DNA from: an uncultured Bacteroidales bacterium
Lineage (GTDB): Bacteria; Bacteroidota; Bacteroidia; Bacteroidales; UBA932
Reading direction: 5' to 3'
DNA length: 64,000 bases
Assembly: GCA_946185745.1 (NCBI GenBank)
Contig: CAMHKQ010000006.1
Coordinates: 26,720 to 90,719 of the forward strand
Positions 20,775-21,494 of the stretch are shown here, piece after piece (the stretch's first letter is position 1; every line of letters starts with the position of its first letter). The position numbers and the translations under genes were made by a program. The notes beneath the pieces were generated by a model. It was not told the DNA's origin, made no database searches, and was given only the letters and a program-made list of their open reading frames with translations.

Positions 20775-20802
20775 AAAAACCGGCTCGAGCGAGCCGGTTT
20801 TT
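20775..20802. terminator. Intrinsic terminator (bidirectional, between tRNA-Leu and rpsU)
   Basis: AAAAACCGGCTC-GAGC-GAGCCGGTTTTT perfect inverted repeat. Confidence 0.9.
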
Positions 20803-20819
20803 ATATGATTGAAAGATAA

Positions 20820-21014
20820 TTAGTTCTCTTCCATGTCGCGGAGATGCTGTACGTAGATGGCTTTTTCCCTGGCCATTCTCTTCTTTACGGACGGCTTCTC
20901 GAAATTCTTGCGGGCGCGGAGCTCACGGATGGCACCGGTCTTTTCGAACTTGCGTTTGAAGCGTTTGAGAGCGCGTTCGATATTGTCACCATCTTTTACG
21001 GGTACTATAATCAT
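20820..21014 (-). CDS. rpsU: 30S ribosomal protein bS21
   Basis: MIIVPVKDGDNIERALKRFKRKFEKTGAIRELRARKNFEKPSVKKRMAREKAIYVQHLRDMEEN. Confidence 0.97.
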   Translation of the reverse strand: MIIVPVKDGDNIERALKRFKRKFEKTGAIRELRARKNFEKPSVKKRMAREKAIYVQHLRDMEEN

Positions 21015-21020
21015 GCTTTT

Positions 21021-21032
21021 ATCACCTCCTTT
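21021..21032 (-). promoter_or_regulatory. Extended Shine-Dalgarno AAAGGAGGTGAT upstream of rpsU
   Basis: Minus-strand mRNA reads CAAAGAAAAAGGAGGTGATAAAAGC-AUG; 12 nt complementary to the canonical 16S 3' tail. Confidence 0.9.
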
Positions 21033-21045
21033 TTCTTTGGGGATG

Positions 21046-21076
21046 CAAAGGTAAGGTTTTTTCTTTTATTTGCAAA
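21046..21076 (-). promoter_or_regulatory. rpsU promoter: -33 TTTG (21076-21073) and -7 TACCTTTG (21053-21046), 19-bp spacing
   Basis: Plus strand CAAAGGTA at 21046-21053 and CAAA at 21073-21076. Confidence 0.75.
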
Positions 21077-21128: not shown

Positions 21129-21494
21129 ATGAAACACATGATTCTTATGCTGTTTGCTTTCGTGGCAACCGCATTCATCATCACCTCCTGCGACCCCGGA
21201 AAGGCAGCCGTCCAGAAGTTCCAGACATTCTACGAATATCTCGACAAGAACTACGACAAACTTACTCAGGACCAGTGGAAAGAGGCAAGCGAGAAGTATC
21301 AGCAGCTTTGCGAGGAAGTCAAGACTGTCAAGCTTTCCGATGAACTCAAGAAAGAACTTGCCACCATCCAGGGCAAGATCGTAGCCAAGTTCACCCAGAA
21401 GGCAGGCGACGAAGTCAAGGGCGCCCTCGAGAGCGCAGGCAGCTTCCTGGAAGGTCTTTTCGGCGGAAAGAAAGAAGAGGCACCGGCGGAGTAA
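21129..21494 (+). CDS. Small helical putative lipoprotein (possibly DUF6565-like)
   Basis: Lipobox IITSC after a hydrophobic signal; KFQTFYEYLDKNYDKLTQDQWKEASEKYQQL. Confidence 0.7.
   Translation: MKHMILMLFAFVATAFIITSCDPGKAAVQKFQTFYEYLDKNYDKLTQDQWKEASEKYQQLCEEVKTVKLSDELKKELATIQGKIVAKFTQKAGDEVKGALESAGSFLEGLFGGKKEEAPAE

Follow-up and report, generated by a model that had tools for sequence, protein, structure and literature searches.

An extended Shine-Dalgarno sequence conserved on rpsU in a family of uncultured Bacteroidales suggests autoregulation by ribosomes lacking bS21

RESULTS AND DISCUSSION

The rpsU locus

We analyzed a stretch of 64,000 nucleotides (the window) from a MAG of an uncultured Bacteroidales bacterium of family f1. 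On its minus strand lies rpsU, which encodes ribosomal protein bS21. In a profile search the product scored 57.3 bits against TIGR00030 (cut-off, 28.95), and PF01165 (bS21) was found in one copy in the 1.9-Mb, 52-contig genome. An alignment to the bS21 of Flavobacterium johnsoniae (7jil_z) spanned residues 1 to 63 of the window protein and showed that residue 54 is a tyrosine, the sole residue of the bS21/bS18/bS6 pocket that we examined. The terminator starts ~18 nt past the rpsU stop codon, and beyond it lies a tRNA-Leu gene on the opposite strand. Because the gene is followed by a terminator and the next gene is on the other strand, rpsU most likely forms a single-gene transcript. The divergent neighbor of rpsU (21129-21494) is a 121-aa putative lipoprotein-like ORF with a hydrophobic N-terminal stretch and then a Cys; a search of this ORF against NCBIfam profiles gave no match.

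The rpsU leader reads TACCTTTGCATCCCCAAAGAAAAAGGAGGTGATAAAAGC-ATG on the minus strand, with a 12-nt extended Shine-Dalgarno sequence (SD) 8 nt ahead of the AUG. An exact match to AAAAAGGAGGTG is present at this SD and nowhere else in the window. Just upstream is a Bacteroidota-type promoter, TTTG-19-TACCTTTG, which the initial annotation had also described and both boxes of which we could place (Table 1). A scan for sigma-70 promoters gave no match for the rpsU leader in the gene's own orientation. We did not hold this result against the promoter, since Bacteroidota promoters differ and the TAnnTTTG element is conserved: it lies 30 to 44 nt ahead of the start codon, mostly 31 to 34, in 65/65 distinct leaders from f1, and 43 of the 65 have a TTTG-like -33 box (3 of 4 positions or better) at 19 nt.

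Table 1. Features at the rpsU locus of the window
Feature	Coordinates	Strand	Remarks
Intrinsic terminator 3' of rpsU	20775..20802	minus	12-pair stem and T run
rpsU (bS21)	20820..21014	minus	64-aa ORF, Tyr54 present
Predicted short rpsU mRNA leader, ~25-28 nt	21015..21042	minus	Inferred from -7 box
Extended Shine-Dalgarno AAAAAGGAGGUG	21023..21034	minus	12 bp with family 16S tail CACCUCCUUUUU, -18.0 kcal/mol
-7 box TACCTTTG	21046..21053	minus	Read from sequence; kept in 65/65 f1 leaders
-33 box TTTG, 19-nt spacer	21073..21076	minus	Read from sequence

Pairing with the 16S rRNA tail

We looked for the 16S gene of the window MAG in its genome and found it absent, and the tail used here is that of its congeners. 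Of 30 16S genes fetched from f1, 29 end GGAACACCTCCTTTTTGGAG and are complementary to the leader, including 8/8 from the genus of the window genome. The f1 16S end reads ACACCUCCUUUUU, in contrast to the canonical UCACCUCCUUUCU, and for this reason the predicted helix is formed by AAAAAGGAGGUG rather than by AAAGGAGGUGAU. The initial annotation had claimed a 12-nt match to the canonical anti-SD (ASD). The strength of the SD and the length of 12 bp stand, but the canonical tail and its register are wrong for f1: the helix of AAAAAGGAGGUG with CACCUCCUUUUU is shifted by two, and the canonical 12-nt register was dropped once the f1 tails were read. The 3' AU of AAAGGAGGUGAU has no contiguous pairing with the f1 tail, and two A-U pairs are gained 5' instead. 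By RNAduplex, the rpsU pairing was -18.0 kcal/mol with the f1 tail and -17.9 kcal/mol with the canonical tail. The helix assumes that the mature 16S rRNA stops at nt 1544, which is its end in F. johnsoniae (PMC9976891). The 16S of most other Bacteroidales families examined ends CCTCCTTTCT.

The one exception among the f1 tails, L153 (genome G432, genus g208), ends GGAATATCTCCTTTTTGGAG and has an altered ASD core (UCUCC). We found no rpsU in this genome. Genuine loss, gaps in the assembly or contamination could each account for this combination.

Standing of rpsU among the genes of the genome

We then compared rpsU with other genes of the same genome. The sample of 455 kb, roughly one quarter of the genome, combined the window with 391 kb from elsewhere in the genome and took in part of the main ribosomal operon; in it, 391 genes from a home-made gene caller were scored against the f1 16S tail. 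The rpsU pairing ranked 1/391, and the runner-up reached -13.3 kcal/mol; none of the mock windows in this sample was at -13 kcal/mol or stronger. At -8 kcal/mol or stronger there were 14 SD windows and 14 mock windows. Genome-wide, the 9-mer AAGGRGGTG was hardly enriched, with 44 sites versus 39 for its reversed control. On these two comparisons we rejected general SD use in the window genome. As the initial annotation had noted for all but rpmA, an SD is lacking from the window genes rplU, rpmA, serS, HU, glnA and the 21129 gene, with best pairings of -3.2 to +1.1 kcal/mol; our script did not locate rpsO, which the annotation had also listed. Weaker SDs than that of rpsU were found on rpsR (-12.6 kcal/mol) and, within the main ribosomal operon, on rplO (-11.6 kcal/mol). 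Thus, rpsU stood above rpsR and above the ribosomal genes scored within the sample.

Conservation in family f1

An alignment of rpsU leaders, which had been suggested as a check of the initial annotation, showed strong conservation of the SD core. Among the 80 nearest named rpsU loci, 77 have an extended SD, and the other three are from Prevotella. The 77 loci gave 65 distinct leaders. In these, AAAAGG[A/G]GGTG has ten invariant positions while its flanks vary, and the sole variable core position exchanges an A-U pair for a G-U pair, so that pairing is kept. When we searched 150 f1 genomes, 147 had rpsU and 137 had the strict SD-plus-start pattern. Among the 10 exceptions, six combine a full SD with GTG as the start codon, one carries the variant AGAGGAGGTG, one has an SD weakened by a mismatch and two have none. 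The extended SD is therefore kept in about 144/147 rpsU-bearing f1 genomes, from some 20 genera. Different bS21 C termini (AAYRQ and AAYIQ) were seen in the two f1 genomes that lack the SD on rpsU, at L213 (G437) and L215 (G448); these genomes may have branched early or have been misplaced.

The base opposite 16S nt 1543 also follows the tail. It is A in 65/65 f1 leaders, matching the family tail UUUUU (U1543), but G in 14/22 SD-bearing leaders of other families, whose tails are mostly UUUCU (C1543) where known. The contrast gave a Fisher p of about 6e-11, a value inflated by shared ancestry and based on 16S tails that are mostly inferred outside f1. G also stands opposite nt 1543 in most of the SD leaders retrieved from genus g164 of family f38; a search for the 16S of this genus found none. 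A change in the 16S tail together with the matching leader base is independent evidence for the predicted pairing.

Comparison with known autoregulation

Autoregulation of rpsU by ribosomes lacking bS21 is established in F. johnsoniae (McNutt 2023, PMC9976891). In that organism bS21, bS18 and bS6 hold the 16S tail, with Tyr54 of bS21 stacking on A1534; ribosomes without bS21 initiate faster on rpsU and more slowly on SD-less mRNAs, and complete ribosomes translate rpsU poorly (PMC9976891). The same study surveyed GTDB species representatives at the complete-genome level with free_scan, asking for rpsU pairing with the extended tail below -13 kcal/mol and stronger than that of all other ribosomal protein genes, and reported no Bacteroidales with both (PMC9976891). 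Among the papers searched, we found no later one that revises this statement. The absence of f1 from the survey would be explained by the family being known mainly from MAGs.

The window genome resembles F. johnsoniae in many respects. Its rpsU carries an extended SD that is past the -13 kcal/mol threshold (by RNAduplex, not free_scan) and is the strongest among the sampled genes; the genome is SD-poor, rpsU probably forms a transcript of its own with a predicted leader of ~25 nt, and bS21 has Tyr54. It differs in belonging to the Bacteroidales, in its 16S tail (UUUUU versus UUUCU, with the matching A in the leader) and in an rpsR that carries an ordinary SD too. SD-poor Bacteroidales are already known to have SDs on rpsR (Jha et al. 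2021, cited through PMC9976891), and the rpsR value of the window genome is within the range given for this gene by McNutt (PMC9976891). Such SDs resemble that of rpsU in standing on the gene of a tail-holding protein (bS18), but the rpsR pairing is shorter and non-extended. A joint change of rRNA tail and leader has a parallel in Chryseobacterium relatives, which, as reported in PMC9976891, have an altered ASD (UCUCA) and a matching rpsU leader. In those relatives the alteration lies in the ASD core; f1 has the canonical core and differs at nt 1543, close to the 3' end.

A probable mechanism and its alternatives

With good confidence, we regard autoregulation of rpsU by bS21-lacking ribosomes as the best explanation. 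In f1, rpsU would be translated via its extended SD, which would pair along the full 3' tail of the 16S rRNA. The bS21/bS18/bS6 pocket of complete ribosomes would hold this tail, so that ordinary SDs would be ignored and initiation on rpsU would be slow. In ribosomes without bS21 the tail would be free to pair with the rpsU leader, and these ribosomes would make more bS21 until every 30S subunit is complete. We infer the sequestration of the tail and the bS21-dependent control in f1 by analogy with F. johnsoniae. The initial annotation had proposed this architecture; the features that can be tested in the sequence match those of F. johnsoniae, and what did not survive was its use of the canonical 16S tail.

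Strong SDs boost initiation in many bacteria, and the extended SD might instead provide high constitutive translation of rpsU with no feedback from the bS21 level. The predicted pairing speaks for translation through the SD, not for regulation, and sequence alone cannot separate regulation from strength. However, Bacteroidia ribosomes largely ignore SDs, complete F. johnsoniae ribosomes translate rpsU poorly, and no SD stands before rplU, rpmA or HU, window genes whose products are abundant. Thus, we consider constitutive strength unlikely. Less probable still is a loss of ASD sequestration in the f1 lineage, with SDs then in general use. The SDs of rpsR and rplO speak for such a loss, but SDs did not exceed mock windows at -8 kcal/mol among the 391 genes, Tyr54 of bS21 is conserved, and rpsR SDs are already reported, via PMC9976891, from SD-poor Bacteroidales. 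A purine-rich leader owed to chance or inheritance and without function, although A-rich Bacteroidota leaders do favor some pairing, is refuted in practice by the ten invariant positions between variable flanks, the variable core position that keeps pairing and the retention of the SD across f1 genera.

Autoregulation by bS21 is a clear bacterial case of differently composed ribosomes selecting different mRNAs. Finding its signature throughout a large uncultured gut family of Bacteroidales closes a stated gap in its distribution.

Extended SDs in other Bacteroidales

We asked how far the extended SD reaches beyond f1. In an order-wide draw of 393 genomes, the strict pattern was present in 6/6 genomes of f1 and in 2/387 others. 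Both of the latter belong to genus g164 of family f38, and in a search of that family the f38 cases clustered there. Judged by their leaders, f1 and this one genus of f38 are clear counterexamples to the reported absence from Bacteroidales.

When bulges were allowed, 17/56 non-f1 families had an rpsU leader at -8.5 kcal/mol or stronger; 21/96 non-f1 leaders reached this value versus 4/96 mock windows. By a Mann-Whitney test, non-f1 leaders did not differ significantly from mock windows (p=0.39), since any SD is absent from most families and only the strong tail of the distribution differs. In many of the non-f1 SDs the core contains an additional base or two, or is one base short, giving interrupted forms such as AGAAAG-A-GAG-(C/A)-GTATT, AAAGG-N-AGGTATT and AGAAAG-AGGTATT. 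With bulges removed and a missing base allowed, they read AGAAAGGAGGTATT, the exact complement of the tail AAUACCUCCUUUCU. This tail was observed in f4 (L115), the only bulged-SD family with a known 16S tail. A few of the 17 families, for example f12 and f44, have shorter SDs that appear unbulged. The bulged or gapped extended SDs (L298, L300, L301, L309, L311-L314, L316, L325, L341 and L343) come from about a dozen families.

Tentatively, extended SDs may be widespread on Bacteroidales rpsU and mostly interrupted by bulges that tune the helix for bS21-free ribosomes only; we find this nearly as easy to accept as to doubt. The bulged SDs beyond f1 are a lead rather than a result, and are more novel than the finding in f1. 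If true, they would offer naturally occurring variation with which to study the need for such a long helix. The program free_scan scores gap-free registers. Bulged SDs would be missed by a survey of the published style, since it consists of gap-free scans of complete genomes. The bS21 protein tree was too short to show whether the trait was gained once or several times in f1, in genus g164 of f38 and in the families with bulged SDs. Phage capture of rpsU was not suggested, as three phage bS21 leaders were without an extended SD.

In genus g164 of f38, rpsU directly follows a tRNA-Leu(CAA) gene at L245, L246, L249 and L254, and the extended SD starts from a few to ~15 nt from the tRNA 3' end. 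Because the SD starts so close to it, the short rpsU leader at these four loci could come from tRNA 3' processing. At L247, L248, L250 and L253, tRNA-Leu(CAA) lies upstream of rpsU too, but at a greater distance.
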